Origin: Bernardetia sp.
Lineage (GTDB): Bacteria > Bacteroidota > Bacteroidia > Cytophagales > Bernardetiaceae
Assembly: GCF_020630935.1 (NCBI RefSeq)
Contig: NZ_JAHDIG010000038.1
Coordinates: forward strand, 1-46,676
Direction: 5' to 3'
Length of the DNA stretch: 46,676 nt
How positions within the stretch are numbered: position 1 is the first letter of the stretch; every line of letters starts with the position of its first letter. A program made the translations under genes and the position numbers. Under the pieces are notes generated by a model. The model searched no databases. It was not told where the DNA came from and worked only from the letters and a program-made list of their open reading frames with translations. Below are positions 14,848 through 32,466 of this stretch, piece after piece.

Positions 14848-14881
14848 AATATATTTACTATGTATGTTTTTTTATCAAAAA

Positions 14882-14889
14882 CAAAGGTA
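14882..14889 (-). promoter_or_regulatory. Candidate -7 element for the 189-residue secreted protein gene
   Basis: The minus strand reads TACCTTTG, an exact TAnnTTTG match 34 bp before the ATG at 14847. No clear TTG -33 box is present. Confidence 0.4.
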
Positions 14890-14935
14890 ACCATATTTTT
14901 GAGAAAATCGTCTGTATGTTGTTAAGTTTTATCAA

Positions 14936-14976
14936 AAAAATCTTCTCTAAGTAAAAACTACCTAGAGAAGATTTTT
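14936..14976 (-). terminator. Strong intrinsic terminator after the phosphohexomutase gene
   Basis: A perfect 14-bp stem (AAAAATCTTCTCTA / TAGAGAAGATTTTT) with a 13-nt loop lies 21 bp after the stop codon. On the minus strand the 3' arm runs into T residues. A/T runs on both sides could let it act in both directions. Confidence 0.85.
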
Positions 14977-14997
14977 AAGCAAGGAAGAAAATAGAAA

Positions 14998-16746
14998 TTA
15001 TTTAACTCCCAAATCAGCAATTTGTGATTGAATTTTGTCTTGTAACGACTGTTTTACTTTGTCGTAATCTTCTTTGTTGTGGAGTTCATCTTTTACAGAA
15101 AAATAAAACTTAATTTTTGGTTCTGTTCCAGACGGGCGCATACTTATCTTGCTACCATCTTCTGTATAGAAAGCCAAAACGTTGGAAGTTGGCAAGTCTG
15201 TTTCCATTGCTTTATATGTTCCTGTCTGTACGTCTAAAACAGTTTGGTTTTGGTAATCATAGACTTTCAAAAGATTACTTCCTGCTAAGGTCTTTGGAGG
15301 ATTTTCTCTAAACGTTTTCATCATCTCTTGAATCTGCTGCGCTCCCTGCTGTCCTTTTTTGGTAATGGAAACTAATTCTTCTAAATAAAAGCCATATTCC
15401 TTATAAATCTCAATCAGCCACTCAAAAAGTGAGAAGCCTTGGTCTTTTGCATAAGCAGCCAAAAGTGCAATACTTGCACACGAAGCCACACCATCTTTAT
15501 CACGCACCTCATCACCAATCAAGTAACCATAACTTTCTTCTCCTCCCAAAATAAACTCTTCGTTAGAGTTTTCTTGTTTTTTCTTTTCTATCAGTGCTGC
15601 AATATGTTTGAAGCCTGTGAGCGTATCATAAATATTGACACCATACTTTTCTGCTATTTCTCTGATAAGTTCGGTCGTTACGATAGTTTTGATAACCATT
15701 TGATTTCCATCTAACTTATCAGCATTTTTCCACGCTTCTAAATTATAGGCTGCCAAAAGTGCAAAAGTCTGATTTCCATTCATCAAAACATACTCTCCTT
15801 CTGTATTCTTGACTGCAATTCCCACACGGTCAGCATCTGGGTCGGTAGCCATTACCACATCAGCATTCACTTCTTTTGCTTTTTTGAGAGCTAATGTCAT
15901 CGCTTCGGCTTCCTCTGGATTGGGATAAACAACTGTTGGAAAGTTTCCGTCTGAAGCATTCTGTTCTTCTACAGTATGAACATTAGTAAAGCCTAATTCT
16001 TTCAAAACCTTTGGCACAAGCGTAATTCCTGTTCCATGAATCGGTGTATAGACGATAGAAAGGTCGCTTTGTCTTTTGATGACTTCTTTTGTTTTCTCAT
16101 CTGCTAACGAATTTATAAGTTGTGCAACGTAAGGCGTATCTACCTCCTTGTCTATTTTTTGAATAAGGTCAGTATTTGCTTCAAAATTTATTTCTTCTAT
16201 ATTTTTTATCGCCTGTACTTCTTCGATAATATTTTTATCGTGAGGCGCAACTACCTGTCCCCCATCTTCCCAGTAGGCTTTATAACCATTGTATTCCTTC
16301 GGATTATGTGAAGCTGTCAAGACCACACCACTTTGGCAACCCAAATGACGAATAGCAAAAGAAAGTTCTGGTGTAGGACGAAGTTCTGTAAATAAAAATA
16401 CTTTTATTCCGTTGGCTGAAAAAATATCAGCTACAATCTGTGCAAATTCTGGCGAGTTGTTACGACTATCGTAGGCAATGGCTACTTTTATTTCCTTTTT
16501 ATTTGGAAATGACTTTTTTAGGTAATTGGCAAGTCCTTGAGTGGCTGCACCGACTGTATAACGATTCATTCGGTTTGTGCCTACTCCCATAAGTCCACGC
16601 AGCCCACCTGTGCCAAACTCTAAATCTTTATAAAAAGCATCTGCAAGGTCAGTTTCTGAGAGCTTTTTGATAGCTTCTTTTGTTTCGTTGTCGTAGTTTC
16701 CTTCTAGCCAATGATTGACTTTTTCTTGGATTGTTGTTTCTAACAT
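14998..16746 (-). CDS. Phospho-sugar mutase (phosphoglucomutase/phosphomannomutase)
   Basis: This 582-residue alpha-D-phosphohexomutase interconverts hexose 1- and 6-phosphates for glycogen/cell-wall precursor metabolism. The phosphoserine loop is VVLTASHNPKEYNGYK (Ser near 146), the metal loop is ATDPDADRVGIA (near 300), the sugar-specificity loop is GGEESYGYLIGD and the phosphate-binding loop is MRPSGTEPKIKFY. The length of about 580 fits the long bacterial PgcA/PGM2-like branch rather than AlgC-type enzymes. The GEESYG signature suggests use of both gluco and other sugars, and I would not choose between glucose and mannose. It is monocistronic, with a TACTTTTG promoter element 31 bp upstream and a strong terminator. 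Confidence 0.95.
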   Translation of the reverse strand: MLETTIQEKVNHWLEGNYDNETKEAIKKLSETDLADAFYKDLEFGTGGLRGLMGVGTNRMNRYTVGAATQGLANYLKKSFPNKKEIKVAIAYDSRNNSPEFAQIVADIFSANGIKVFLFTELRPTPELSFAIRHLGCQSGVVLTASHNPKEYNGYKAYWEDGGQVVAPHDKNIIEEVQAIKNIEEINFEANTDLIQKIDKEVDTPYVAQLINSLADEKTKEVIKRQSDLSIVYTPIHGTGITLVPKVLKELGFTNVHTVEEQNASDGNFPTVVYPNPEEAEAMTLALKKAKEVNADVVMATDPDADRVGIAVKNTEGEYVLMNGNQTFALLAAYNLEAWKNADKLDGNQMVIKTIVTTELIREIAEKYGVNIYDTLTGFKHIAALIEKKKQENSNEEFILGGEESYGYLIGDEVRDKDGVASCASIALLAAYAKDQGFSLFEWLIEIYKEYGFYLEELVSITKKGQQGAQQIQEMMKTFRENPPKTLAGSNLLKVYDYQNQTVLDVQTGTYKAMETDLPTSNVLAFYTEDGSKISMRPSGTEPKIKFYFSVKDELHNKEDYDKVKQSLQDKIQSQIADLGVK

Positions 16747-19120: not shown

Positions 19121-20137
19121 ATGGAGGATATAGAAAAAAGACTTTTCAGAAACATAGAACAACTCATTGAGGAAAGCAAGAAAGAAGTCGCAATAAGTGT
19201 AAATCAGATAATGAGTAAGTTGTATTGGAATATTGGCAAAGAAATAAAAATGGTAATCTTAAACAATCAGAAGCCTAACTATGGAAAACAAGTTATAGAG
19301 AATTTGAGTGAGAAGTTATCTGCTAGTTATGGTCGTGGGTATAGCAAAACGAATTTGTTTAATGTTATTAAAGTGTACGAAGTTTTTGACAACGAACAGA
19401 TTTTCCACGCACTGAGTGGAAAATTGTCTTGGACACATTTAAGAAAGTTAATGTATATTGATGATGAGTTGAAAAGAGAGTTTTATATAGAAATGTCTAA
19501 ACTAGAAAACTGGAGTACACGTACCTTACAAAATCGTATGAAATCTATGTTATACGAACGTACGTCCATATCCAAAAAACCAAACGAGACTATAAAAAAG
19601 GATTTAGAGATACTAAAAAAAGAGAAACAAATCAATCAAGATTTGGTATTTAGAGACCCTTATCTTTTAGATTTTTTAGATTTGAAAGATACTTATTCCG
19701 AAAAAGATTTGGAAACTGCCATTCTTGCTGATTTACAACGTTTTTTGATAGAATTAGGAAATGATTTTGCTTTTTTGGCTCGTCAGAAACGTATTACTAT
19801 TGACCATACTGATTATTACATTGATTTGTTGTTCTATCATAGAAGATTGAAGTCTTTGGTAGCAATAGATTTGAAATTAGGTGATTTTGAGGCTGGATAT
19901 AAAGGGCAAATGGAACTTTACCTACGCTACTTAGAGAAATATGAAAAAGTAGAAGGAGAAAATTCGCCCATTGGTTTGATATTATGTAGTGGAAAAAATG
20001 AAGAGCATATAGAGTTGTTAGATTTGGAAAGAAGCAATATCAAAGTAGCTGAATATTTAACAATTCTTCCTCCTCTACAACTTTTAAAAGAGAAGTTACA
20101 CAAAGCTATTTTGTACGCTAAAGAGAAAAATAGCTAG
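19121..20137 (+). CDS. DUF1016/YhcG-family PD-(D/E)XK nuclease-like protein
   Basis: This 338-residue protein has the standard two-part architecture. The N-terminal DUF1016_N helical/winged-helix region carries YWNIGKEI, the characteristic GRGYSKTNLFNVIKVYEVF, LSWTHLRKLM and WSTRTLQNRM. The C-terminal PDDEXK core carries YYIDLLFYHRRLKSLVAIDL, K and then GQMELYLRYLEKYEK. The catalytic ExK is DLK here rather than the more common ELK, a conservative change. Members are frequent in mobile and restriction-modification islands, but their role is largely unproven. It begins 44 bp after nuoM and is followed by a degenerate copy of the nuoM 3' end, which suggests insertion at that site. The gene looks intact. 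Confidence 0.92.
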   Translation: MEDIEKRLFRNIEQLIEESKKEVAISVNQIMSKLYWNIGKEIKMVILNNQKPNYGKQVIENLSEKLSASYGRGYSKTNLFNVIKVYEVFDNEQIFHALSGKLSWTHLRKLMYIDDELKREFYIEMSKLENWSTRTLQNRMKSMLYERTSISKKPNETIKKDLEILKKEKQINQDLVFRDPYLLDFLDLKDTYSEKDLETAILADLQRFLIELGNDFAFLARQKRITIDHTDYYIDLLFYHRRLKSLVAIDLKLGDFEAGYKGQMELYLRYLEKYEKVEGENSPIGLILCSGKNEEHIELLDLERSNIKVAEYLTILPPLQLLKEKLHKAILYAKEKNS

Positions 20138-20157
20138 ATAGTCTTTGGGTTTTATAG

Positions 20158-20205
20158 GTCGCTCTCTTAGGTACTTTGCCGAATTTGGTTTTTGGGTGGT
20201 TGTAG
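20158..20205 (+). pseudogene. Duplicated, degenerate 3' end of nuoM
   Basis: This stretch encodes VALLGTLPNLVFGWL-stop, closely matching the nuoM C-terminus AILLGIFPNLVFEWL-stop (19029-19076). The nucleotide match includes AATTTGGTTTTTG and GTGGTTGTA. A stop lies directly upstream, so only the terminal 15 codons remain. Its position immediately after the DUF1016 gene suggests that the nuclease gene was inserted near the 3' end of nuoM and the end was duplicated or replaced. Confidence 0.65.
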
Positions 20206-20301
20206 AATAATGAAAATTGTAATAAGTTACTTTCCTATCTTCCAAAAAAATGACATATTGCATATCATTCTATCTCTAAACAAAAAATTGAAATAAAATC
20301 T

Positions 20302-21669
20302 ATGTCTAAGGTTGGTTTTGGTAAATGGTTAATGATAATTGTATTGTGTTTTGGTTTACAATCCTGTTGGCTATTCACTAATAATGATACAGATTATGAC
20401 AATGTAAATGACGTAATCGATAACTGCATTTCTAGTGAGCCTGTTGAAAATGCTGATTTGATAGACCCCTGCACAGGCTGCCCAAAAGATACGCTCAAAA
20501 TCACTTCTGACAAGATAAATAATCTCAATGTTTATTTGGAAATTTCTGGAAGTATGAAGGGTTATATGCCTAAGCAAACAGGCAGAAGTACAGGCTTTCA
20601 GAAACAAATGGCAAGTCTTTTTTCGTGGTTTGTAACCAGTACAGAAGCAAAAAATAAAAATTTCTATGGCATAAAAGACGACCAAACCACGCTAGAGTTT
20701 GAATCTAAAGACGACGTAGCTTCAAAAATATCAAGAGCAGAATTTGAGTTTGGAGCAACTACCACTTTGCCAGATTTAGTAGAAAAAATTATCAAAAAAA
20801 CAGGACAAGAAGATGTAAGTGTTATCGTTTCAGATTTTTTATACTCTCCACCTAATGTTTTGAACCTAGAAGGAACACTGGGTGTACGCCTTAGAGAAAT
20901 GTTTTTAAAACGTCCAGAAATAGCTCTTTCTGTCTATGCTTTTAAGTCAGATTATTCTGGAAAGTTTTATACAGTTACAAATCAAGTGATTACGAATTGT
21001 TGTAATGACAAACGTCCGTATTATGTTTGGGTGTTGGGAAAACAACCTTTGGTAGCACAACTTGACAGACTCATTGGTGAAAAAATGAAATTTGAAGAAG
21101 AGTTGCATATTGGTAAAACGTATGGAAAAATGGAAGGCGAGATTTTGGCACAGTCAGGCAGAGATATGAATGCCTATTGGCAAAGAAAATCGGATTGTCC
21201 GAATATAATTACAGAAGCAAAAAACATTTCAGAAGAAGAGAAGCTACTTTATACTATCGGCTTGGATTTGAGCAAGTTACCCAAACAACATCAAAATTTA
21301 GAGTATCTAAAAAATAACTTGGTAGTTCGTTCTTCTAATTCAAAAAGTAACATAACCAAAATCTACACGTATAAAGATTTTGAGTCCAAACTAGCAAAAG
21401 AAGATGTAGTTCTTGCCAAAAAATATACGCATTTTGTAGAAATTCAGACCTTTTCAGTAGATACACCAAACAAAACTACTCTAAGTTTAGAGCTTCAAAA
21501 CAGCTTACCTACATGGGTAGAAACTTGGAATACAGAATCTGATGAAACAGATGCAGAACGCAACGAAAAAACGGTTCTTTTGAAACGTGTTATTTCTGGA
21601 ATACAGGAAGCACATGAAAATGAAACACTTTTTTCATATCCGTATATCATTACAGCAAGTGCATTGTAA
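20302..21669 (+). CDS. Lipoprotein with TSP3-like segment and vWA-like domain
   Basis: This 455-residue first gene of the tubulin/actin-like cluster encodes a lipoprotein (lipobox GLQSC, Cys22). An acidic TDYDNVNDVIDNC (residues 30-42) matches a thrombospondin type-3 calcium repeat, usual just after the lipid anchor in Bacteroidota envelope proteins. LNVYLEISGSMKGYM (75-89) looks like the first strand and MIDAS loop of a von Willebrand A domain with Glu for the first Asp. GATTTLP (151-157) and SVIVSDF (173-179) fit the second and third MIDAS positions. The C-terminal 200 residues are unassigned. vWA domains bind partners through a metal, so this is probably the periplasmic adhesion or scaffold subunit. 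The vWA call is by pattern only. It is followed after 78 bp by the next cluster gene. Confidence 0.75.
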   Translation: MSKVGFGKWLMIIVLCFGLQSCWLFTNNDTDYDNVNDVIDNCISSEPVENADLIDPCTGCPKDTLKITSDKINNLNVYLEISGSMKGYMPKQTGRSTGFQKQMASLFSWFVTSTEAKNKNFYGIKDDQTTLEFESKDDVASKISRAEFEFGATTTLPDLVEKIIKKTGQEDVSVIVSDFLYSPPNVLNLEGTLGVRLREMFLKRPEIALSVYAFKSDYSGKFYTVTNQVITNCCNDKRPYYVWVLGKQPLVAQLDRLIGEKMKFEEELHIGKTYGKMEGEILAQSGRDMNAYWQRKSDCPNIITEAKNISEEEKLLYTIGLDLSKLPKQHQNLEYLKNNLVVRSSNSKSNITKIYTYKDFESKLAKEDVVLAKKYTHFVEIQTFSVDTPNKTTLSLELQNSLPTWVETWNTESDETDAERNEKTVLLKRVISGIQEAHENETLFSYPYIITASAL

Positions 21670-21677
21670 AAATACTT

Positions 21678-21711
21678 CCTCGTTGACGGTTCTAAAACCT
21701 CAACGACGGTT
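21678..21711 (+). repeat. CCTCGTTGACGG/CCTCAACGACGG hairpin element, copy 1
   Basis: The two 12-mers are separated by TTCTAAAA; TCGTTGA and TCAACGA are reverse complements. The order of the half-sites is opposite to that in the other four copies. It lies 36 bp before the start at 21748. Confidence 0.8.
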
Positions 21712-21747
21712 AAAATTCATAATTCTAATAATTCGTAATCGATTTTC

Positions 21748-22155
21748 ATGAGAGATTTTTTAATAGCCATTTATGAGAAATTTTTGAGGAGTGTTGCCCA
21801 AATTCCTTCCAATACTGTAACAACGTGGCGTAACGATGTTTTTCCTCTTTCCTTGTGGCTACTTTTAGCTATTACCTTTGTGGCTGCCATTCTATTTTAT
21901 TTTTTCTACAACAGACTTTATTCATCTTACAATAGCGTTGGAAGCTGGTTCAGAACATTCCTACTAAGTGGATTTCTGACTGGAGTAGTCAGTTTTATTA
22001 TTGCTTATTCAGCATTTTCTAAAGCCTTCAAACCTGTCTTGACACTTTCACTTTGGTATGCTGTATTGAATTTACTCTATGGTTTAATCTTGTTTTTTGT
22101 CTTTTCTCTACTTTTCAAATGGTTTTCTACCAACGGACGAAAAACGCCTTTTTAG
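21748..22155 (+). CDS. Three-TM membrane protein of the tubulin/actin-like cluster
   Basis: This 135-residue protein has three predicted membrane helices (about 33-53, 70-90 and 98-123) and an amphipathic N-terminal 30 residues. The N-terminus contains WRNDVFPLSLW just before the first helix. There is no signal peptide and no family that I recognise. It sits between the vWA-like lipoprotein and the tubulin-like gene, with hairpin elements on both sides. I infer an inner-membrane anchor for the cytosolic NTPases. It ends with a charged NGRKTPF tail. Confidence 0.75.
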   Translation: MRDFLIAIYEKFLRSVAQIPSNTVTTWRNDVFPLSLWLLLAITFVAAILFYFFYNRLYSSYNSVGSWFRTFLLSGFLTGVVSFIIAYSAFSKAFKPVLTLSLWYAVLNLLYGLILFFVFSLLFKWFSTNGRKTPF

Positions 22156-22164
22156 ATTCATTTT

Positions 22165-22197
22165 CCTCAACGACGGCTTTAGTCCTCGTTGATGGTT
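22165..22197 (+). repeat. CCTCAACGACGG/CCTCGTTGATGG hairpin element, copy 2
   Basis: CAACGA and TCGTTG form the stem around CGGCTTTAGTCC. The element contains an ATG at 22192, in frame with the downstream gene, but the likely start is at 22252, 54 bp further on. Confidence 0.8.
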
Positions 22198-22251
22198 CAA
22201 ATAAAAAATATCTACTACTCGTATCTTGCGAGTAATACAAAACAACAAACA

Positions 22252-23721
22252 ATGAGCAGCAAAAATAATCTTTTCATTTTTGGAATAGGAGGAACAGGAA
22301 CAAGAGTAGTCAAGTCATTGATAATGCTTCTTTCGGCTGGCGTAAAAATAAATGCTGAAAAAGTAGTTCCCATTCTGATAGACCCACACGAAACAAGCGA
22401 CGAATACAGAAAAGTAAAAATGATGTTGGAGCAGTACGAAAAAATGTTTCAACACGCCAAAACTACTAACACTTCATTTTTTTCTACCGAAATTCTTCCA
22501 TTAGGCAAACTGCATAGCGAAACGATAAATGATGCAGAAAAAATAGATAATTCTTTTGGGCTTAGTTTTAGTAAATACGCTAAAAATACCTTTGAAGAGT
22601 TTATTGGCTATAACAAGGATATGTCCAGCCAAGACCAAGCACTTGTATCGATGTTTTTCTCTGAAAAAGACCGAAAAAGTGAGATGGCTGTTGGCTTTCG
22701 TGGAAACCCCAGTATGGGAAGCGTGATTTTGAATAAGCTGGAAGATTCTGAAGAGTTTAAGTTTTTCAAAAGAGTTTTCAATACAGGAGATAAGATTTTT
22801 TTAGTTAGTTCTATTTTTGGTGGAACAGGTGCATCTGGTTTTCCATTGCTTCTCAAAAATCTACAAAGTGCTGGCGACAACATTCAGAAAGCCGTAAAAG
22901 GTGCTGTAAGTGTGATGCCTTATTTTAAGCTCAACGAAAATAGAGATAGTTTTATAGATTCTAATTCTTTCATTACCAAAACAAAGGCTGCGCTGTCTTT
23001 TTATGAAAATCAGTTGAAGGGAATTGATGAACTCTACTACATTGCTGATAGTCAGTTGGCAATGCACAACAACGATGAGAAAATACAAGAAAATGCAGCT
23101 CATCTAGTTGAAATGATGGCTGCGATGGGAATTATAGATTTTACAAGTTTGCCAAAAGGCTACGATACAAAAGTAGCTTCGACTAGCAGAGATAGTAATT
23201 TTCACGAGTGTTCCATCGAACTAGATACTAAAGAACTTTCTCTTTACAATTTGGATGAAGATACGCTCCGAATTATCCATAAACCGATTATTAAGTTTTT
23301 ATTTTTGACGTATATCTATAATAATTTAGGTAGAAAAGCAGATTCGCAGCCGTGGTTTAAGGAAACGCTAGGAAATGACTTTGATGATGCGTTTAAGAAA
23401 GGAAATGGAGAGTTTGAGCCGTTAGTGAAGTTTTTGATTGATTATAATTCGTGGCTTAGAGAAATGGGGGTAAAGGAAAGAAAATTTGTTCCTTTCAATG
23501 TAGATACAGATATGAACGAATGGGTCGTCGACCATGGAAAGCTAGTAAAGAAAAGTTTTGCCAATAAATTTTTCAATACTCGTCTTTCAGATGATAGAAT
23601 CAATGTAATTCTAAACGATGAGGTGCGAAGCCTTAAAACGGACAAAAAAGGATTTGATAAGCTATTAGAATTGATGGACAGAGCAACCGACTCTATTTAC
23701 ACAAAATATTTTAAGATATAA
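22252..23721 (+). CDS. FtsZ/tubulin-like GTPase
   Basis: This 489-residue cytosolic protein has the tubulin-superfamily signature. The N-terminal strand and loop FIFGIGGTGTRVVKSL (8-23) correspond to T1, and SSIFGGTGASGFP (about 185-197) is the T4 phosphate loop equivalent to GGGTGTG. It fits the group Pfam calls Tubulin_2, and the FtsZ-like family that Makarova and Koonin linked to vWA proteins. It is longer than FtsZ, with an unassigned C-terminal 200 residues, and no obvious T7 GxxNxDxxD catalytic motif, so polymer-coupled hydrolysis is uncertain. The frame is open from 22189, but that ATG lies inside a hairpin repeat and the first 21 codons look non-coding, so I use ATG 22252 (MSSKNNLFIF). 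It is followed after 130 bp by the actin-like gene. Confidence 0.85.
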   Translation: MSSKNNLFIFGIGGTGTRVVKSLIMLLSAGVKINAEKVVPILIDPHETSDEYRKVKMMLEQYEKMFQHAKTTNTSFFSTEILPLGKLHSETINDAEKIDNSFGLSFSKYAKNTFEEFIGYNKDMSSQDQALVSMFFSEKDRKSEMAVGFRGNPSMGSVILNKLEDSEEFKFFKRVFNTGDKIFLVSSIFGGTGASGFPLLLKNLQSAGDNIQKAVKGAVSVMPYFKLNENRDSFIDSNSFITKTKAALSFYENQLKGIDELYYIADSQLAMHNNDEKIQENAAHLVEMMAAMGIIDFTSLPKGYDTKVASTSRDSNFHECSIELDTKELSLYNLDEDTLRIIHKPIIKFLFLTYIYNNLGRKADSQPWFKETLGNDFDDAFKKGNGEFEPLVKFLIDYNSWLREMGVKERKFVPFNVDTDMNEWVVDHGKLVKKSFANKFFNTRLSDDRINVILNDEVRSLKTDKKGFDKLLELMDRATDSIYTKYFKI

Positions 23722-23725
23722 CTCC

Positions 23726-23825
23726 TAAAACTTTGTCAGTAGTTTGCTTATAAACTCTGACAATAGTTGAAACAAATATTCATATAAACTATTGATAGCT
23801 TTTTAAAAAGTCTGTCAAAGTTTTA
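23726..23825. repeat. 100-bp imperfect inverted repeat between tubulin-like and actin-like genes
   Basis: TAAAACTTTGTCAG (23726-23739) and CTGTCAAAGTTTTA (23812-23825) pair with a single mismatch, enclosing 72 bp. It fills nearly the whole gap between the two NTPase genes, the only junction of this size in the cluster without the CCTCAACGACGG element. It could be a dispersed intergenic repeat or a stable RNA structure that separates the expression levels of the two genes. Confidence 0.5.
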
Positions 23826-23851
23826 GACAAAGAAAATAATCATTTTCAATT

Positions 23852-26800
23852 ATGGCTCAAAACAACAGTCGTCATTTACTTACACTAAGAAAAGAAAGAA
23901 ATACAGATAAAAAAGGCTGGCACACGACCGAAATCTACAATGCTTCACGCATTGAGGAAATAGACGATCCCAATGGCTCAAAAGTAGCTATTCCACCAAG
24001 TTCGATTCCTACACCTTTTGCGCAGATGCACCTCTACGATGTGGCTTTCAAAATGGTTAATCGTTTAGGACACGAAGGAAATACCATTTATCATAGCTTA
24101 GTTTCGGAATGCCTTGATGCGATAGATTTGATTTATAACCTTAGAGAGCATTTACAAGCCGATAGAAACGGTCATTTTTCACTTATAGAATGGAATATCG
24201 ATGAGCGAACAAAAGCACTCAAAGAATCATCAAATGATGGACATCAGCTTTTGGGAAAGACATTAGAACTTTTTACTGGAGAACTTTCGCCATTTGGTAA
24301 AGACTTACAAGGAGAGCGCAAAACGCCAAGTTTTTATATTCTGACGTATGATTCTACGCCAATTATTTCTACCTCACCTCTTACTTTTGCTTTTGTTTCC
24401 AAAACAGCAGAATACGAAAAAGAACACTTTTTAGAGTTGGTTAGTCCTATCAAGACATTAGACGGACGTTCTATGTTTACAGGTTTGAAGCCATTACATC
24501 AGCGTCCAATGGAGTTTCAAAACTATATGCATCGTCTGTTTTATTTGCATAAAGGACTTCTCAACCAAATGGATAATGTACACGAATATTTGCGTATCCA
24601 AAAAGAGAAATTTCATACAGCAAAAGGCAGTGAAATAAAAGAAATCTACGACGAAAATTCCAAAATGGGAGCTTTCGAAATGGATTATAAAGATGTTGTC
24701 ATTAATGGAAAAACCCCACGTATTGAAAGAGTAGCTTGGAAAAGTTGTGCGCCAATCATTACAGATGGCGATTTGGATAGTAGTTATTTGATAAAACCAA
24801 GTCCTTCGAAAGAAAAAACAGCTCGTTTGGAAATTGGAGAAGGTAGCAATTCTAAAAAAGTATTGCCTTTGGTTTTACAAGAAGGATTTGATAATCCAAA
24901 TTTCAATTATTTCAAAGGAAAGCCGTGGAGCAATAAAACACAAGTAGAGTTTTCATTACCAAAAAACAAGTGGGCAGATAGAAACTTGCCACAAATTGGC
25001 TACAATTATCCGTATTTGGTTACGACAGACTTATTAGCAGAAGATTTAGTCAGAATGCCGTATTTGATTAATCCAGATACGTTTGTTGTTCCTCAAAATC
25101 ATATTCACGCTCAGAATGTAGATTTTCTATTGCCTGTAACGGATTTGTATTTCAAGTTTTTTGATGAAGAAACCCTAATTGATAACCTTACGATTGAGGA
25201 AGTAGAATCTGAACAAGGGAATATTAAAGTAACGCTCAAAGTTCCGATTAAAGGAAACTCAAACAGTCCTGCCTTCCTTACTTTTACTCGTTTTTATGAT
25301 TATGGCAATCCAAGAAACGCCAATAATGGAAAAATAATCAATTTAGTAGATGATGGAAAAGACGAAACGATGGACGATATTCCGTCGCCTTTTTCTATCA
25401 GTATTTATCCTTTTGTGCGTACTGGCGATGCAGAACTAGATAATATGTACAAAATAATGCTACTTTCTTCTCAACTAGATAACGTAGAAGAATATGATTT
25501 AGTGGCTTATAATGAGGAAAAACCAATTTCTAGTAGCGATTCTGCTATCGAAAAAATAAGTAGATTCGAACGCAAAGTAGAAGGTTCACATCTTTCAGTT
25601 TACTCTGTAACAGGAACTTGTTTTGATGCCTTAGAAATTATCACACCCTATACAGGAAAAACAGGCGAAAAAGCAAGAGGTTGGGTTCTGCCACGTTGGA
25701 AAAAACCACCACACAGGGGAACGAATCCAAAACCGTTTACTGTAGCCGTCGATTTTGGAACGACAAATACATTTGTAGCTTTCACAGAAGACGACGCAGC
25801 CACAGCAGGAAAAATCAAAACCTATCCATTTTTTATTGGAGAGGAAGACATGCAAGCCGTTACGCTCAACAAGCCAACAGCCGATAAAAAACATGTAATG
25901 TTGGAAAGGTACAGTTTTGATGACAACGCCATCGGACTTGCCACGACATTTTTCCAAGATAGAATGTTTATGCCAAATTTGATTGGAAATCCTCCAACAC
26001 AAGAAGCAATTTATCAAAACTGGCGCAATACTTTTCCTATCCGAACGGCTCTGATTCACTCTAACGATGTCAAATTTGATGTTTTATTAAATTCAGCTAT
26101 CGGATTTTTATATGAAAAAGATAACCTAGATATTGCAAGACATGGGCAGGAAGTAACGACGAACTTAAAATGGTCTGCCGAAAACTCAAAATTGGTAGAA
26201 GTTTTTATTGAGCAAATTCTTCACATGATTCGAAACAAAGTGATTTTGAATGGTGGTGATTTGTCAAGAACTCGTTTGGTTTGGTTTAAGCCTTTAAGTT
26301 TGCCAAAAACACTAACTGACAAACTCACAAAAGTTTGGAATGAAAACAGCCGAAAAATTTTAGGTAAGAATGTAACCATTCGCCTCGTCAATGAATCAGA
26401 AGCACCTTATTTTTATTATCGTGCGACAGGTAAAATAGACAAAAGTAGTTCTGTCGTGTCGATAGATATTGGAGGTGGTTCTACAGACATTGCGCTTGTT
26501 TCTAATGGAGGAAAAAATAGACTTGCCACTTCTGCATTTTTTGGAGCAAACACACTTTGGGAAGGAAGAGATAGCAAAGACTCTAATCAGTCATCTGAAG
26601 GTGGAATTGTGGCAAAATATCGTCCTTGGTTTAAAGAGCGTATTGCACTTACAAAGAAAGGAATTAGCCAAGCAGCAGGCTCACGAATTGAGATGATTTT
26701 TAATGAAATTATGGATAGTGGGCGTTTTGATTCTGGGGATAAGTCTAGTTTTATGTTTTCGGCAGAACATATTGATTTTGCAGAAAAACTAAGCGAAGAC

Positions 26801-27670
26801 AAAGATATGCTCTTGCTTTTCTTGCTTCATTATGCTGCTTGTGTCTATCATGCTGTGCAGCTTTTGGCTGTGAGTGGAATGCCTTATCCGAAAGATTTTT
26901 GTTTTAGTGGAACAGGCTCAAAATATCTAAATCTTTTAGACCATAGCGAAGATAAAAATGGATTGCAGAAGTTTACTGAAATTTTTGCTCAAAAAACTTA
27001 TGAAAAGTATAGGGAATTGGGTATTGATGCAAAACCACAAAACGAAAATAGCTTTGATGTAGCAGAAGAAGAGGAAAATGTTTTTGAAGGCTTTGGAGAA
27101 TTAGAAGGTGGTTTACCAACTCAAGATACACAAGAGACTTTCGAAATTGGTGGAAATATCAATCTTCACATGACTAAAGAACCAAAAGAAGCGACCTGTT
27201 TTGGTGGGATTCATAGTTTTGCAGACTCATATAAAGACTTAGGTTTAGGGCAAAATATAAATACCATATTTTTGGGAGAAATTGATGCAAAAGCTGACGA
27301 ACTTTTGCCACAACGAAACCTAACTTATGAAGAACTTATTGATGAAAATGGAAGACCAACAGCAGCAGGAAATCAGCTTGCTATCCGAATCAATAAAAAC
27401 TTAGACCAGTTTTTAGAACTCTTCTTAGATATGAACAAAAATCCTCAAACTCGTTTTGAAGATTTCAACATCGAAACTAATTTAGATGCCTTTGAAAAAG
27501 GATTTAAAGCTATTAAGGCTAAAGAACTTGCCAAAGGAATGATTTATGAGCGTAGCAATGCTTCGGGTGGTTATACGCCCGTACGTGAGACATTCTTTTT
27601 CTATCCATTGCGAATCATTATCAGAGATTTGGCTCTTGCAATGGCAAAAAATAAAACAGTAAATATGTAA
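23852..27670 (+). CDS. Giant actin/Hsp70-fold ATPase-like protein
   Basis: This 1272-residue cytosolic protein has a C-terminal half with the three nucleotide-binding signatures of the actin/Hsp70/sugar-kinase superfamily. Phosphate-1 is FTVAVDFGTTNTFVAFTEDD (near 628), phosphate-2 is SVVSIDIGGGSTDIALVSNG (near 867) and the adenosine motif is DFCFSGTGSKYLNLLD (near 1016). The first about 620 residues show no recognised domain and look mixed alpha/beta. An acidic linker (EEEENVFEGFGELEGG) sits near 1070 and a final about 150-residue domain follows. The arrangement is reminiscent of the SrfB virulence-factor family, but I cannot prove membership. Next to a tubulin-like gene it is presumably the energy-coupling or chaperone-like partner. 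A short conserved-looking ending KNKTVNM follows. Confidence 0.85.
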   Translation: MAQNNSRHLLTLRKERNTDKKGWHTTEIYNASRIEEIDDPNGSKVAIPPSSIPTPFAQMHLYDVAFKMVNRLGHEGNTIYHSLVSECLDAIDLIYNLREHLQADRNGHFSLIEWNIDERTKALKESSNDGHQLLGKTLELFTGELSPFGKDLQGERKTPSFYILTYDSTPIISTSPLTFAFVSKTAEYEKEHFLELVSPIKTLDGRSMFTGLKPLHQRPMEFQNYMHRLFYLHKGLLNQMDNVHEYLRIQKEKFHTAKGSEIKEIYDENSKMGAFEMDYKDVVINGKTPRIERVAWKSCAPIITDGDLDSSYLIKPSPSKEKTARLEIGEGSNSKKVLPLVLQEGFDNPNFNYFKGKPWSNKTQVEFSLPKNKWADRNLPQIGYNYPYLVTTDLLAEDLVRMPYLINPDTFVVPQNHIHAQNVDFLLPVTDLYFKFFDEETLIDNLTIEEVESEQGNIKVTLKVPIKGNSNSPAFLTFTRFYDYGNPRNANNGKIINLVDDGKDETMDDIPSPFSISIYPFVRTGDAELDNMYKIMLLSSQLDNVEEYDLVAYNEEKPISSSDSAIEKISRFERKVEGSHLSVYSVTGTCFDALEIITPYTGKTGEKARGWVLPRWKKPPHRGTNPKPFTVAVDFGTTNTFVAFTEDDAATAGKIKTYPFFIGEEDMQAVTLNKPTADKKHVMLERYSFDDNAIGLATTFFQDRMFMPNLIGNPPTQEAIYQNWRNTFPIRTALIHSNDVKFDVLLNSAIGFLYEKDNLDIARHGQEVTTNLKWSAENSKLVEVFIEQILHMIRNKVILNGGDLSRTRLVWFKPLSLPKTLTDKLTKVWNENSRKILGKNVTIRLVNESEAPYFYYRATGKIDKSSSVVSIDIGGGSTDIALVSNGGKNRLATSAFFGANTLWEGRDSKDSNQSSEGGIVAKYRPWFKERIALTKKGISQAAGSRIEMIFNEIMDSGRFDSGDKSSFMFSAEHIDFAEKLSEDKDMLLLFLLHYAACVYHAVQLLAVSGMPYPKDFCFSGTGSKYLNLLDHSEDKNGLQKFTEIFAQKTYEKYRELGIDAKPQNENSFDVAEEEENVFEGFGELEGGLPTQDTQETFEIGGNINLHMTKEPKEATCFGGIHSFADSYKDLGLGQNINTIFLGEIDAKADELLPQRNLTYEELIDENGRPTAAGNQLAIRINKNLDQFLELFLDMNKNPQTRFEDFNIETNLDAFEKGFKAIKAKELAKGMIYERSNASGGYTPVRETFFFYPLRIIIRDLALAMAKNKTVNM

Positions 27671-27679
27671 TTTATAAAT

Positions 27680-27712
27680 CCTCAACGACGGCTTTATGCC
27701 TCGTTGACGGTT
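27680..27712 (+). repeat. CCTCAACGACGG/CCTCGTTGACGG hairpin element, copy 3
   Basis: The half-sites are separated by CTTTATG. It begins 10 bp after the actin-like stop codon and ends 62 bp before the start at 27775. Confidence 0.8.
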
Positions 27713-27774
27713 TTTGAAAATAGTCAAAGGCAAGCCTTTAACCTACAAAGTGACAATAAAAATCAATCTATCCC

Positions 27775-29457
27775 ATGAAAACACGTTACATTTTTTTATC
27801 TCTATTTTTTGTAGGAATATTCTTCTGTATTTCTCAAAATGGAATAGCTCAAACACCACAAGAAAATCAAAAAGTAGTTCATAAGGCAGTTGATAAAATG
27901 AACTATGAGTTTGCGCTGGCAATTCTGAAAAGAATAAATGAGTTAGACGAAAATGTAAAGTTTTCTGCTTCAAAACTAAAAGATACTACTTTTAGAAATG
28001 TAGAGAATCTAAAGCCAAGAGTAGAGGCACAGTCATTGAAAAGAATTTTTAGTCAAGAAAAACTAAGTGATAATACCATAGGGTATATTTATGATATAAA
28101 TTTCGTTAAGCAAAGTAGAAAAACATATTCTACTAATGATTTGGCTTCAAGTATAGAATCATTGGATAAGATTGAGAGAAAAATTCTACAAAGAACCAAT
28201 GATTTTGGAGAGCAATACAATAAATTCAAGCTACCATATAAGCAATATCAAAATTTAAAATTACGTCTTACTAAAATCAAAAATTCGGCTGTCAGTCAGT
28301 TGAAACCAAAGGAAAATCCAGATACAGAAATCAAAACAGACACCACTACAAAAGTAGAAGAGGATTCTACAAAACAAGAAAAAACAGAAGAAATCACTAA
28401 AGTAGAGGCTACCCAAAACATTTTTTATCAAATCAATGGAGGAGAAAAAAAAGAACTTGTAGGAAATCTTGAAACCGTTGTAGAAGGCGAAAAACCAACC
28501 TATAAATTTGGCTTGGATGTAAAAAGTACGGATTCAATAAGATTTAGTAATTCAGAAATAGATACCATGTTTTTAGCTTCAAATATGTCTTCGCCTCTTT
28601 TTTTAGAAAATAAAAATAGTCGTTTTATTATAGATTTGAATATCAGCCAAATGGAAGAAAATGATACAATTATGTGGATTATTTTTGCTGCGATAGCCAT
28701 TTTGGTGGGTGCGTATGTGATGTATCAACATTCAAAAAAAAAACAATCTGAAAAGCCTAGAAAAAATCAAAAGGAAGTAAAGAAAGACCCTTTGAGTAGA
28801 GATGATAAGCCTATCAAAACGCCTGTTGTTACTACTCCAAAAGTAGAAAACAAGCCTACACCAATAGATAAAACTAAAGAACAGATAGAAGCAGAAAAAC
28901 AAAGGTTACAAGCTATTCTTACCAATAAAAAACTATCTAACGAACAAAAAAAGAAAGAAGCTAAGAGTGAAAATATTTTGTTAGAAGTGGCTAAAAATGC
29001 AGAAGTACAAACTCTCCTCAAAAAAATAGAAGAGTTGCCAAAAGAAGAAGTCAAAGCAGAAACTACAAATAAAGCAAATACAGAAGAGACAAAAGAAGAA
29101 GTTCCTTCTAAAAACACTACAAACTACCACGAACCTTTGTATGTTTCGCTTTCCAATGTGGAAGAAATGGGAGTAAAATCGGAGCGAAAAAAGCCGATGA
29201 GTAACACCATTTTTGTCGTTCGTCCGTATAGTAAAGGAGATGAGCAAGCCAAAGAAGCAGATTTTTTATTGCATTCAGAAATAAAAGATATGGCATTTGA
29301 ATCTATTTTTCGTTCGATTGAAAAACTAGACCATTTGATAGAACATTCTACCTTTGTAGAGAGTGCAAAGAAAATTGAGCAAGTAGAAAAAGGAAAACTC
29401 ATCAAAGAAGACGGCGTTTGGAAAGTAAAAAAACGTTTGAGAGTAAAATTTTCATAA
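27775..29457 (+). CDS. Signal-peptide and single-TM protein with C-terminal domain shared with next gene
   Basis: This 560-residue protein has a Sec signal (MKTRYIFLSLFFVGIFFCISQNGIAQ). A periplasmic alpha-helical segment (about 27-160) is followed by a Lys/Glu/Thr-rich linker and a beta-like region, then one TM (MWIIFAAIAILVGAYVMY, 300-317). After the TM comes a basic stop-transfer sequence and a long charged coiled-coil-like cytosolic stretch. Residues about 456-560 form a domain (YVSLSNVEE, KPMSNTIFVVRPYSKG, FESIFRSIEKLD, VEKGKLIKEDGVWKVKKRL) that recurs at the C-terminus of the next protein. The topology would link periplasm and cytosol, so it is a good candidate for transmitting force or signal from the NTPases to the envelope. 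No known family is recognised. Confidence 0.8.
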   Translation: MKTRYIFLSLFFVGIFFCISQNGIAQTPQENQKVVHKAVDKMNYEFALAILKRINELDENVKFSASKLKDTTFRNVENLKPRVEAQSLKRIFSQEKLSDNTIGYIYDINFVKQSRKTYSTNDLASSIESLDKIERKILQRTNDFGEQYNKFKLPYKQYQNLKLRLTKIKNSAVSQLKPKENPDTEIKTDTTTKVEEDSTKQEKTEEITKVEATQNIFYQINGGEKKELVGNLETVVEGEKPTYKFGLDVKSTDSIRFSNSEIDTMFLASNMSSPLFLENKNSRFIIDLNISQMEENDTIMWIIFAAIAILVGAYVMYQHSKKKQSEKPRKNQKEVKKDPLSRDDKPIKTPVVTTPKVENKPTPIDKTKEQIEAEKQRLQAILTNKKLSNEQKKKEAKSENILLEVAKNAEVQTLLKKIEELPKEEVKAETTNKANTEETKEEVPSKNTTNYHEPLYVSLSNVEEMGVKSERKKPMSNTIFVVRPYSKGDEQAKEADFLLHSEIKDMAFESIFRSIEKLDHLIEHSTFVESAKKIEQVEKGKLIKEDGVWKVKKRLRVKFS

Positions 29458-29466
29458 ATAAAAACT

Positions 29467-29499
29467 CCTCAACGACGGCTTATGTCCTCGTTGATGGTT
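29467..29499 (+). repeat. CCTCAACGACGG/CCTCGTTGATGG hairpin element, copy 4
   Basis: The half-sites are separated by CTTATGT. It ends only 16 bp before the start at 29516, so it would overlap or adjoin the ribosome-binding region of that gene. Confidence 0.8.
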
Positions 29500-29515
29500 G
29501 AAAAAATAATCAAAA

Positions 29516-30262
29516 ATGGACGAACAAGAAATAGCAAAATATAAAGAACAGTTGCGCCTTCGAAAATTGGGGGTAGCTATTTATGAATTACAGACTATTT
29601 TAGGACAAAAAATAAGTGCTGCTGAAAAGACGCAAAAGGCAAAGAACTATTATCTCAAAATTGATAATGCTGTGAAAGGTGAGGGAGTGATTTTAGATTT
29701 GATGTACAAAATTACTGGAGAAAAAATAAATGCAGAAAATTATCAGAAGCCATTAAAAACACCTCCTAATCCTATCCGAAAAAATCAAACAGCACTCAAT
29801 AATTATCTACAAGAAAAACAAATACAAGCCAAAACAAAGCCTACAACTCTAGCAAAACAAACAGCTTCTAAAACGACAGTTACTGCGCCAGTTACACAAC
29901 CACCAAAACAAAACTCTTTTCCCATCACAACCTATCTTTCAATCAGAGATATTTATGAGGAAGATGATGAGACGTTCTTTAAGAAAGGAAGAGATAAGAC
30001 TGTTAGTAACAGCATTTTTGTAATCCATCAAATTTCAGCTACTGAAGCTACTTTTGAAACCTACAAAGAAATGAAAACTAATTTTTTCAATTCGTTTTAT
30101 CGCTCACTGTCTGGTTTTGTTTTTGCCTTTAATGTGGTGGGTTCTCCTTCTTTTGAAGATGACAAAGTTGAAACAATAGAAAAAGGAAAACTAACCAAAG
30201 AAAACGAGTATTGGAGAGTAACCCAAAAAGCTAAAATAGAATTTAAGAAAGCAGAAGAATAA
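29516..30262 (+). CDS. Cytosolic cluster protein with the shared C-terminal domain
   Basis: This 248-residue protein has no signal or TM. The N-terminal about 75 residues are helical (KYKEQLRLRKLGVAIYELQ) and a Pro/Thr/Lys/Gln-rich linker spans about 80-135. Residues 140-245 align by eye with the C-terminus of the preceding protein: YLSIRDIYEED, TVSNSIFVIHQ, FFNSFYRSLSG, IEKGKLTKENEYWRVTQKAK. The shared domain is absent from the other cluster proteins, so the two may form a complex through it or compete for one partner. The stop overlaps the next ATG (TAATG), indicating translational coupling. Confidence 0.75.
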   Translation: MDEQEIAKYKEQLRLRKLGVAIYELQTILGQKISAAEKTQKAKNYYLKIDNAVKGEGVILDLMYKITGEKINAENYQKPLKTPPNPIRKNQTALNNYLQEKQIQAKTKPTTLAKQTASKTTVTAPVTQPPKQNSFPITTYLSIRDIYEEDDETFFKKGRDKTVSNSIFVIHQISATEATFETYKEMKTNFFNSFYRSLSGFVFAFNVVGSPSFEDDKVETIEKGKLTKENEYWRVTQKAKIEFKKAEE

Positions 30263-30795
30263 TGTTTGACAGACCAGAAGAACAACAGCCTAGAAACTCT
30301 GGAAGAGTAAATCACGATGCAGAAAATACAAGCTCTTCGAAAGCAAGCACAAAATATATTTATATAATCATTGGTATCTTCGTTTTGTGTGGACTGATTG
30401 GAGGAGGATTTTTTTTGTATGATTTGGGTAAAAGCTCATCTTCAAAGCCCTATTCTAAACCCAATAGTGAAATCATACTTTCTGAACCTACTCAAACAAC
30501 TTCTTCAGAAGAGCGAAATACAGAAGAAATATCTTTTCAAGAACTTATTGGAGAATATACAGGAAACATCAAAAATGAAGTCGTTACAGTAAAAATCTTT
30601 GCAGAAGGAGAGAAAAAACGCTATTCATATTCCAAAAATAACCGTCTTTCCTATATGCTTTTTCATTTTCCAAAGACTAATGAAATCAATTTTCATAGAC
30701 CCAAAGAAGGATTGGCAGAGTTTAAAGCTATCAAAGAAGGAAATAGTATTGTGTTACGTTCTCCAAATGTGGAATTACGAAAAATAAATAACTAG
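30262..30795 (+). CDS. Single-TM protein of the cluster
   Basis: This 177-residue protein has a hydrophilic, Ser-rich N-terminus of about 30 residues, then one TM (KYIYIIIGIFVLCGLIGGGFF, about 31-50). A Ser/Thr/Pro/Glu linker leads to a C-terminal globular domain (about 95-170) with alternating short strands, probably on the periplasmic side. The N-terminus has no signal-peptide features, so the TM is likely a signal anchor. The start overlaps the stop of the previous gene, and the next gene begins 3 bp after its stop, so the three are tightly coupled. No family is recognised. Confidence 0.75.
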   Translation: MFDRPEEQQPRNSGRVNHDAENTSSSKASTKYIYIIIGIFVLCGLIGGGFFLYDLGKSSSSKPYSKPNSEIILSEPTQTTSSEERNTEEISFQELIGEYTGNIKNEVVTVKIFAEGEKKRYSYSKNNRLSYMLFHFPKTNEINFHRPKEGLAEFKAIKEGNSIVLRSPNVELRKINN

Positions 30796-30798
30796 AAT

Positions 30799-31236
30799 AT
30801 GCCAATAATAAGAAGTAAACACCAAGCTGGTGAAACCATTGAAGAATTTTATGCAAATGAAGATGTGGGGATGGCTTTCGTAATGACAGGAAAAGTAATG
30901 TTAAAACTGATAAAATTCATCAACGATAATGTTACTGAAACCAAATTATCCGTTTTTACATCTCACTATACAATGTGTATTCAGACGAAAGACTCTAAGA
31001 GGTTGAATGATTTTATCACTATTAATGCTGACCCAATTTCAGATACATATTATTTTAGTTATAAATTACCTACTGAAAAAAGTCCTTGGAAAAATGCGTG
31101 GGTTTCTGGCACAGCCAAAGGAGTAGAAGAAGGACTAATTTTTCTTATCAAATCAATGATAGGAACAGAGAAGTGGAAAGGTAATAAAGAACTAGAACAG
31201 TTAGCTAAGAAGTATAATATCTATCAAAAGGATTGA
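30799..31236 (+). CDS. Small cytosolic protein, last gene of the cluster
   Basis: This 145-residue protein has no signal or TM. Its sequence contains a short strand-helix pattern (MAFVMTGKVMLKLIKFINDN, WVSGTAKGVEEGLIFLIKSM) and ends in a helical LEQLAKKYNIYQKD. I do not recognise a family. It starts 3 bp after the previous gene and its 3' end overlaps the convergent coaE by 13 bp, so there is no terminator between them. Being so tightly joined to the cluster, it is probably a functional component rather than an unrelated gene. Confidence 0.7.
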   Translation: MPIIRSKHQAGETIEEFYANEDVGMAFVMTGKVMLKLIKFINDNVTETKLSVFTSHYTMCIQTKDSKRLNDFITINADPISDTYYFSYKLPTEKSPWKNAWVSGTAKGVEEGLIFLIKSMIGTEKWKGNKELEQLAKKYNIYQKD

Positions 31237-31847
31237 AACTTCTCATGCAACTCCAAAACCTGCTTAATCAACGGATGAGAAGCATCATTATAAATCACAA
31301 AATCGGCTCGTTTTAATTTTTCCTCTTCTGGCATTTGCTTGGCGATAATTCCTCTTACTTGTTCCTCTGTTCGGTGCGAATCTCTTTCCAAAACTCTTTT
31401 GATACGGTTTTCTAAAGGCGAATGAACTACAATAATAGCATCTAACACTTTATACGAATCTGATTCAAACATCAAGGCTGCTTCTTTCAGAAGATAAGAA
31501 CTTTTATTTTTATGTTCTTCATACCATGATGCATAATCACGTCCTACGGCTGGATGGACAATAGAATTGAGGATTTGTAGTTTAGAATTGTCATTTGGAT
31601 TGGAAAACACTGTTTTTACTAAAAAATCTCTATTAACTTCATTTTCAGACAGATAAACTTCTTCCCCAAAGGCTTTTTTAAGTTCTAGTTTTAGAATATC
31701 ATCTGTAACCATTACCATTTTAGCACGAGTGTCTGCATCATAGACAGCAATTCCCAATGTTTCGAAGATTTTACAGACTGTACTTTTTCCTGTACCTATA
31801 CCTCCAGTAATGCCAAGTTGAAGAATATCTCCTTTTTTCTGTATCAT
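31224..31847 (-). CDS. coaE: Dephospho-CoA kinase
   Basis: This P-loop kinase catalyses the last step of coenzyme A biosynthesis, transferring phosphate from ATP to the ribose of dephospho-CoA. The Walker A motif GITGGIGTGKST is at residues 12-23, followed by DADTRAK, VHPAVGRDY, EAALMFESDSYKVLDAIIVV and the RDSHRTEEQVRGIIAKQMPEEEK lid segment. A longer frame opens at 31967, but its first 40 codons overlap the DUF4231 gene and look non-coding, so I chose ATG 31847 (MIQKKGDILQ; 207 residues, the family's usual length). It lies 13 bp after the DUF4231 stop, suggesting one operon with DUF4231 and DUF3124 genes. Confidence 0.93.
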   Translation of the reverse strand: MIQKKGDILQLGITGGIGTGKSTVCKIFETLGIAVYDADTRAKMVMVTDDILKLELKKAFGEEVYLSENEVNRDFLVKTVFSNPNDNSKLQILNSIVHPAVGRDYASWYEEHKNKSSYLLKEAALMFESDSYKVLDAIIVVHSPLENRIKRVLERDSHRTEEQVRGIIAKQMPEEEKLKRADFVIYNDASHPLIKQVLELHEKFQSF

Positions 31848-31860
31848 TTTTTTATTGAAT

Positions 31861-32466
31861 TTAGGGTGTAGGTGATGGTGTGTTACGCAAAACATCATCT
31901 GTTGGAGTATCGTCTTCATCATCCTTATTTTTTGAACCTTGTAAGAAACGATTGATATCAGAAGCAACAGTTCCTTCTATTCGCTCTACAAAAAGTCGTT
32001 TCATAGCCATTTCATTCAAACCTTGATAAGGAGGAATCTTGAACTCATAATAATACTGTTCTTTCTTTAGATTTTCAGCAATATTTCTATAATTATACCA
32101 GTTGCTCATCGGTTGTTGGAGTTTATCTAAAGCAGCTACAATAGCAATAACACCCGAAATAATAGCACTCATCAGACCACTATATTCTTTAACCCAAGAA
32201 ATATATCCCCCCACAGCAACAATAATTGGAATCAAAGCTCCCAAGAAAATGACAATACGTTGATACCACATAAATAGATTTTTGTTGGCAACAGCTTTCT
32301 TGTCGTACCAAGTTACTTGTCCGATATAGCGTTTCATAAAATAATCTACATAATCGCTATGTGTCGTGATTTGGTGGTAATCCATCTGTTGTCCATATAT
32401 ATCTACTTTTATAGTATATGGATTGTGAGCAGAATTAGAACTGTCTTGTTTGTTATTATCTTCCAT
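31861..32466 (-). CDS. DUF4231 (SLATT-like) two-TM membrane protein
   Basis: This 201-residue protein matches the DUF4231 pattern. A helical start contains YFMKRYIGQVTWYDKKAVANK. Two membrane helices follow (WYQRIVIFLGALIPIIVAV and SGLMSAIISGVIAIVAAL), then WYNYRNIAENLKKEQYYYEF. DUF4231 is related to the SLATT domains that act as membrane effectors in some nucleotide-signalling conflict systems, but many members are stand-alone. No sensor or cyclase is nearby, and the gene sits between a lipoprotein gene and coaE (11-bp overlap with the upstream gene), so a defence role is only a possibility. The C-terminus is disordered and acidic, then Pro/Thr-rich. Confidence 0.85.
   Translation of the reverse strand: MEDNNKQDSSNSAHNPYTIKVDIYGQQMDYHQITTHSDYVDYFMKRYIGQVTWYDKKAVANKNLFMWYQRIVIFLGALIPIIVAVGGYISWVKEYSGLMSAIISGVIAIVAALDKLQQPMSNWYNYRNIAENLKKEQYYYEFKIPPYQGLNEMAMKRLFVERIEGTVASDINRFLQGSKNKDDEDDTPTDDVLRNTPSPTP

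Follow-up and report, generated by a model that had tools for sequence, protein, structure and literature searches.

A C-terminal domain that recurs beside tubulin-like and actin-like proteins in Bernardetia and its relatives suggests a membrane tether for an unstudied cytoskeletal machine

The cassette and its genes

The window analysed here is a stretch of 46,676 nucleotides from Bernardetia sp. (contig NZ_JAHDIG010000038.1). It encodes a cassette in the order vWA-like lipoprotein (A), protein with three transmembrane (TM) segments (B), tubulin-like protein (C), actin-like protein (D), and E; gene F is the neighbour of E on the same strand, 58 bp away (Table 1). The Pfam and PADLOC scans covered ten window genes between positions 19121 and 32466. 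For gene A they gave no Pfam domain at the cut-off. A vWA-like motif of the type seen in A is present in 12 of the 17 A proteins.

The listed open reading frame of C begins at 22189, upstream of the conserved start. The protein matches the tubulin families PF00091 (3.4e-5) and PF13809 (1.1e-4, 22.0 bits), both under the cut-off. Among the seven C proteins scanned, two reach the PF13809 cut-off of 27 (L071, 27.8; L073, 27.3) and none reaches that of PF00091 (33). The glycine-rich nucleotide loops G13-G-T-G and G190-G-T-G are invariant in 19/19 aligned C proteins. Protein D of the window matches Ppx-GppA (7e-6, 26.1 bits, cut-off 27) and, more weakly, MreB and HSP70; in five other D proteins the matches to actin-fold ATPase families are below threshold or absent. 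The motifs D634-F-G-T and D872-I-G-G-G are invariant in all 18 D proteins. These indications are weak for each protein but consistent, and suggest that C is a diverged relative of tubulin/FtsZ and D a diverged relative of actin/HSP70. Profile searches of solved structures returned no match for either the C or the D alignment.

Several other genes lie around the cassette. A domain related to gene G occurs in the sister genus (L071:13143-14021), and PADLOC weakly links G to a viperin-associated NERD model (1.5e-5). A YhcG/DUF1016 nuclease (PDC-S02) is encoded upstream of the cassette (window 19121-20137) and a SLATT/DUF4231 protein with two TM segments downstream of it (31861-32466). Among the six other genus loci, the SLATT gene was seen only in L022.

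Table 1. Positions of the cassette genes, of the parts of E and F, and of two kinase genes that carry the domain in other genomes (window coordinates unless a locus is named).
Feature	Position	Strand	Basis
Gene A, predicted lipoprotein with a vWA-like MIDAS variant (LEISGSMKGY), first cassette gene	20302..21669	+	motif
Gene B, small protein; relatives show about three hydrophobic segments	21748..22155	+	ORF, relatives
Gene C, tubulin/FtsZ-like GTPase, 489 aa from the conserved start	22252..23721	+	weak Pfam matches, GGTG loops
Gene D, 1272 aa, N-terminal half of unknown fold, then actin/HSP70-like ATPase domain	23852..27670	+	weak Pfam matches, motifs
Gene E, single-TM protein, 560 aa	27775..29457	+	ORF, hydropathy, AlphaFold2
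TM segment of E, about residues 298-316	28666..28722	+	hydropathy; Lys/Arg-rich sequence after it
Predicted helical module of E, residues 363-419	28861..29031	+	AlphaFold2
Common C-terminal domain, E copy, residues 453-560	29131..29454	+	BLASTP, profile, AlphaFold2
Gene F, soluble paralogue, 248 aa: helical module, linker, C-terminal domain	29516..30262	+	BLASTP, hydropathy, AlphaFold2
Predicted helical module of F, residues 3-67	29522..29716	+	AlphaFold2; homologous to G002 E1-E3
Common C-terminal domain, F copy, residues 137-244	29924..30247	+	BLASTP, profile, AlphaFold2
Gene G, 177 aa, one hydrophobic segment; first base is the last base of F	30262..30795	+	ORF
Gene H, 145 aa, last gene of the run	30799..31236	+	ORF
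Domain-ending protein kinases, weak biotin/lipoyl-like N-terminus	L130:9344-11512; L134:9023-11194	minus (L134)	Pfam

The C-terminal domain of E and F

A sequence-only reading of this DNA had claimed that E and F end in a common domain, at residues 456-560 and 140-245, respectively. BLASTP aligns residues 456-559 of E with 140-243 of F (35/111 identical, 61/111 positive, 52.4 bits, E = 3e-12), and a profile sets the bounds given in Table 1; both the claim and its residue ranges are thus confirmed. Compared on their own, the two domains score 50.8 bits, versus a best of 21.2 and a mean of 8.8 for 200 shuffles of the F domain. On sequence comparison, the last ~107 residues of E and of F are homologous. 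A Lys-rich, low-GC genome could be prone to spurious similarity, but chance or convergence between short segments of similar composition is a most improbable source of the likeness, given the distance from the shuffle maximum and the presence of the domain in all seven genus members and, by profile, across the wider order. Searched against its own genome, F finds itself, E, and one extra match at E = 0.10. The wider domain profile finds two copies only, those of E and F.

The topology of both proteins was assigned from hydropathy and by eye. E begins with an apparent signal peptide and a periplasmic part (helices first, then strands), followed by the TM segment, a Lys/Arg-rich stretch, a helical module, a linker, and the C-terminal domain. 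Its hydrophobic windows lie at residues 6 and 298, and because the Lys/Arg-rich stretch comes after the second, the C-terminal end should be cytosolic. Hydropathy detected no strongly hydrophobic segment in F (maximum 1.02). The proposal that one copy of the domain is membrane-tethered on the cytosolic side and the other free is therefore supported by hydropathy and by the homology of E and F.

AlphaFold2 models were obtained for F (ten sequences, mean pLDDT 76, domain blocks 78-95) and for E (six sequences, mean pLDDT 68, domain blocks 72-90). Different predicted folds, which would have contradicted the sequence-only reading, were not seen at the level of secondary structure. In both models the domain consists of strands, a helix pair, and strands, in equal order except for one short additional strand in F; the two models are not independent, since the alignment for F contained six E rows.

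The likeness may extend upstream of the linker. In G002, a genus member with four copies of the domain, the helical module of F is related to the cytosolic parts of the three TM proteins E1-E3 (hhalign E = 1.8e-6, probability 90; BLASTP against E3, 1.2e-5). Against the six single-E genomes, including the window, the comparison is not significant (hhalign E = 0.075, probability 0.8); the helical module of the window's E may still be the same module as that of F. Because the module before the linker is also homologous in G002, F probably corresponds to the cytosolic half of E minus the anchor.

The domain is the region with the lowest dN/dS in both proteins, in two species pairs compared by a simple counting method. 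Specifically, the values for the domain are 0.058 and 0.108 in E, and 0.093 and 0.048 in F. In E, the values are 0.17 and 0.24 for the periplasmic part and 0.42 and 0.24 for the TM-linker-helical region; the linker of F has 0.52 and 0.62, so that the linker regions span 0.24-0.62. The helical part of F gives 0.71 and 0.14. The value of 0.71 rests on a dS of 0.025, and in that pair the helical part is as identical as the domain (95.7 vs 94.8%). Overall, the sequence of E diverges much faster than those of C and D.

We found no convincing Pfam family for 28 domain copies at E <= 0.05; two families matched one copy each (E = 0.019 and 0.045) and were taken as chance. Foldseek gave no match at E <= 0.001 for the F and E models in the PDB and none for the F model in a viral library, results that do not by themselves indicate a new fold. 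Using VIA-align, the best Z for F is 3.9; E reaches up to 7.8, mostly with helical proteins on its periplasmic part, and the domain itself is poorly covered. One candidate for F, GrpE chain 1dkg_B (Z 3.1, rmsd 9.1, 66 aligned), was tempting as D is HSP70-like, and was rejected as noise level, tied with unrelated rows. The E/F alignment had two matches among solved structures, at E = 0.69 and 2.2.

Distribution and neighbours of the domain

With F as the sole query, 7 of the 11 genomes of the window's family matched; these are all seven members of the genus, and none of the four family genomes from other genera did. The gene order A-B-C-D-E-F, with coaE close downstream, is found in the window and in the six fetched genus loci. 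In one of these (L019) gene A runs off the fetched stretch and additional genes lie between F and coaE. Gene H is present in three of the six (L018, L021, and L022). Identity to the window within the genus is 78-95% for C and 73-94% for D, and lower for E and F.

In a tree of 50 domain copies, in which several branches outside the genus are long and of unsure placement, all 16 genus copies form one clade (100/100), so the E/F pair arose by local duplication within the genus. The clade splits into an F-type side (97/83) and an E-type side (90/82). Of the four G002 copies, carried by E1-E3 and F, that of the membrane-bound E3 falls on the F side; F may derive from a full-length ancestor through loss of the anchor half; alternatively, a fusion may later have given rise to E3. 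These observations bear on the suggestion that F is a soluble antagonist, which would occupy the docking site of E, free a cytoskeletal complex from the membrane, and so act as a true switch. The F domain is strongly constrained (dN/dS 0.05-0.09) in a protein that has no anchor, and E and F are adjacent on one strand with 58 bp between them. However, a fixed gene order fits a co-subunit equally, and E3 indicates that the F type is not always soluble. We consider the antagonist unlikely.

More broadly, a profile of D matched 122 of the 390 genomes of the order, in 26 of 129 genera. A single-TM protein follows D in 19 of the 20 fetched loci, and the twentieth holds a fusion of C and D at a contig end. 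Genus profiles matched 12 of the 19 E-like proteins after D. The other seven entered the wider profile on the basis of position and visual inspection; these are the copies of L064, L067, L070, L072-L074, and the first of the pair in L065. A profile of eight genus copies and one of 20 copies from outside the genus align with an hhalign probability of 98 (E = 1.7e-13). The 28-copy profile finds the domain in 144 of the 390 order genomes, and in 122/122 of those with D. Among the matches listed, 113 of the 122 genomes have the domain on the strand of D and within 2.8 kb downstream, at 1.1-2.7 kb from where the D match ends; for genomes outside the profile-building set this is 90 of 99, again among the matches listed. 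Of the nine remaining D genomes, five have no domain among the matches listed and four have it elsewhere; in one of these four, G223 (L139), a domain gene does directly follow D. The domain ends at most four residues from the C-terminus in 50/50 proteins, a place that is by construction for the 28 profile rows, which were cut from C-terminal ends, and that holds for the 22 proteins not in the profile.

Across the phylum, 8 of the 395 sampled genomes matched the domain and 13 the tubulin-like C. One cassette, in a metagenome-assembled genome (MAG) from elsewhere in the phylum (L124), looks degraded, its tubulin-like gene being interrupted by stops. L139 has a second domain gene (14757-16352), divergent to a complete cassette with its own copy. 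Searched against named genomes, F alone had no relative, and the D alignment had three matches: Bernardetia sp., Flexibacter sp., and an uncultured Cytophagales bacterium.

The domain also occurs in other settings. Kinases of L130 and L134 carry it at their C-terminal end (Pkinase E = 1.7e-39 and 2.1e-39). In the genomes with these fusions, G047 and G032, there are also frames of 1167 and 1172 aa that resemble a diverged D. Of the 22 genomes with the domain but without a strong D, 20 match a wider D profile somewhere. Among the six from family f4, four have frames of 1142-1172 aa and two have frames of 609 and 885 aa, which look like a diverged D. Among the 14 from f14, two are without any D match, in 11 the only frames span 313-470 aa and probably encode other members of the actin family, and one also has a 1106-aa frame; the last two of the 22 have D-profile frames of 441 and 447 aa. 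In the four fetched f14 loci the domain ends a single-TM protein, and neither C nor D lies beside the domain gene, so the partner there may differ. The f14 locus scanned with Pfam (L128) encodes a GAF/PAS protein upstream of the domain gene. No domain was recognisable in L125-L127, three more distant cassettes that contain both C and D.

Two further readings draw on these settings. The first is that the domain is a homotypic adaptor, the copy of E binding that of F (elsewhere itself), so that E would recruit F to the membrane. Homotypic binding has been proposed for the effector-associated domains of bacterial conflict systems. Several proteins of one cassette can end in the domain (four in G002), and it is also fused to kinases, a type of sharing that PMC7159879 describes for such adaptors. 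Our comparison with such adaptors was through Pfam. However, outside the genus 93 of 115 D genomes have a single domain match; the second copy is usually missing, and a pair of copies is thus no general requirement. A single copy may still associate with itself. We doubt that the domain acts in this way. The second is that the domain is a general signalling or regulatory module, such as a ligand or phosphopeptide sensor, with the tubulin/actin link one use among several. The kinases, the f14 proteins without adjacent C or D, and the GAF/PAS neighbour in L128 are consistent with this, but the kinase-fusion genomes also have the diverged D-like frame, and, among the matches listed, 113 of the 144 domain genomes have a copy a short way downstream of D. 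A general module is in our estimate rather improbable.

One MAG encodes C and D fused in frame (L075:1-4871, minus strand) over at least 1623 residues, cut by the contig end inside D. The fusion supports a physical complex of C and D, with the reservation that it comes from a single MAG and could be an error. The sole domain match of this genome is on another contig.

Many relatives carry two additional genes after E, for which PADLOC and NCBIfam models of ZorA matched 8 of 14 proteins and those of ZorB 12 of 13. Examples of these ZorA/ZorB-like (MotA/MotB-type) genes are L073:5121-6962, L059:12490-15126, and those of L137-L140. The Pfam MotA/ExbB family matched 4 of 14 ZorA-like proteins, and one ZorB-like member scored 26 bits against the NCBIfam ZorB1 cut-off of 400. 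A ZorB-like profile, searched in 62 of the 122 D genomes, gave 42 matches, of which 38 are strong (37/37 genomes in f12 and 1/16 in f10). Four further f10 matches are weak and doubtful, and probably due to one of the 13 alignment rows (L070), an aspartic protease. The profile found none in the window's family f1 (0/8) or in f3 (0/1). The ZorAB-like motor genes are an optional part of the cassette, not found in the window's family by this profile.

We considered whether the cassette is an anti-phage system. This would fit the ZorAB-like genes next to it in relatives, as well as two genes close by in the window, YhcG and SLATT. However, the cassette keeps its position near coaE in 7/7 genus members, the identity of C (78-95%) and D (73-94%) within the genus looks vertical, and no PADLOC model matched A-F.

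A possible role at the membrane and comparison with known systems

Since the domain recurs beside tubulin-like and actin-like proteins in many relatives, it may link a cytoskeletal machine, so far unstudied, with the membrane. Specifically, we propose that the domain is a docking module that tethers a tubulin/actin complex, with F as a soluble paralogue, a proposal to which we give roughly an even chance. A small beta-rich domain at the extreme C-terminus would serve docking, and through it E would tie the tubulin-like C and the actin/HSP70-like D to the inner membrane, while its periplasmic part perhaps contacts the vWA-like lipoprotein A. The gene for E was duplicated in the genus, leaving a descendant, F, without signal peptide, periplasmic part, or TM segment. 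F could then dock on the partner of E from the cytosol, acting as a soluble co-subunit or competing with E. In this scheme C and D as the partner, E as the anchor, the contact with A, and the role of F are all inferred.

The sequence-only reading had further suggested a switch or a hetero-oligomer that binds one common partner. A common partner is plausible because the domain has the lowest dN/dS in E and F and is present in 122/122 D genomes; the switch and the hetero-oligomer are more speculative. The strongest argument for docking is that this constraint coincides with a conserved position near D. The proposal is weakened by the kinase and f14 settings and by the cassettes of L125-L127, where the domain was not recognised; the fast evolution of E relative to C and D, and the location of the domain on another contig in the genome with the C-D fusion, also count against it.

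If docking is right, bacterial relatives of tubulin and actin would work jointly at the membrane, served by an adaptor domain dedicated to them. The E/F pair would present one domain in a tethered and a free form, and the domain could serve as a marker for the system (144/390 order genomes). We extend this, tentatively and with more doubt than confidence, to an undescribed envelope machine. The GTPase C and the ATPase D would form one complex (a single polypeptide in one genome), tethered through E to the lipoprotein A and powered in many relatives by a ZorAB-type proton motor, and in the genus F would have replaced or modified the motor input.

In the open-licence literature we found no paper describing the cassette or the domain. 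The nearest described systems are the tubulin/HSP70/vWA GTPase systems (PMC7159879) and FtsZl1 (PMC2875224). In the former, the GAP1-N2/DO-GTPase conflict systems, a TRAFAC GTPase and GAP1 are central; operons combine a tubulin-family protein with vWA, or HSP70 with GrpE, near the membrane, tubulin and HSP70 belong to separate themes, and kinases occur in a third (PMC7159879). The tubulin theme is said there to be restricted to firmicutes and actinobacteria. Here, in contrast, tubulin-like and actin/HSP70-like proteins lie side by side, in Cytophagales, and the Pfam scan of ten window genes (19121-32466) turned up no TRAFAC GTPase or GAP1.

In the FtsZl1 systems a diverged member of the tubulin family occurs together with a vWA gene, OmpA-family genes, kinases, and membrane proteins; most FtsZl1 proteins have an extended coiled coil and an alpha-helical C-terminal domain, with one example of 1051 aa (PMC2875224). 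The window cassette likewise has a tubulin-like protein and a vWA-like gene, but C is 489 aa, and the cassette includes the actin-like D, whereas the FtsZl1 description, in the portion available, names no actin-like partner (Makarova and Koonin 2010, PMC2875224). The ZorA/ZorB-like genes after E in relatives resemble the Zorya motor, and no Zorya model is among the PADLOC matches of the ten window genes. Overall, the cassette differs from the nearest described systems in its pairing of a tubulin-like with an actin-like protein, in its putative adaptor E, and in the ZorAB-like genes of relatives.

A further analogy is with ZipA, in which a membrane anchor is joined by a flexible linker to a C-terminal cytosolic domain near a tubulin-family GTPase. 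By analogy, E may be seen as a similar arrangement of anchor, linker, and C-terminal domain near the tubulin-like C. The ZipA Pfam family was not found in E or F (E <= 1), nor in the 28 domain copies (E <= 0.05), and E differs from ZipA in its apparent signal peptide and large periplasmic part.
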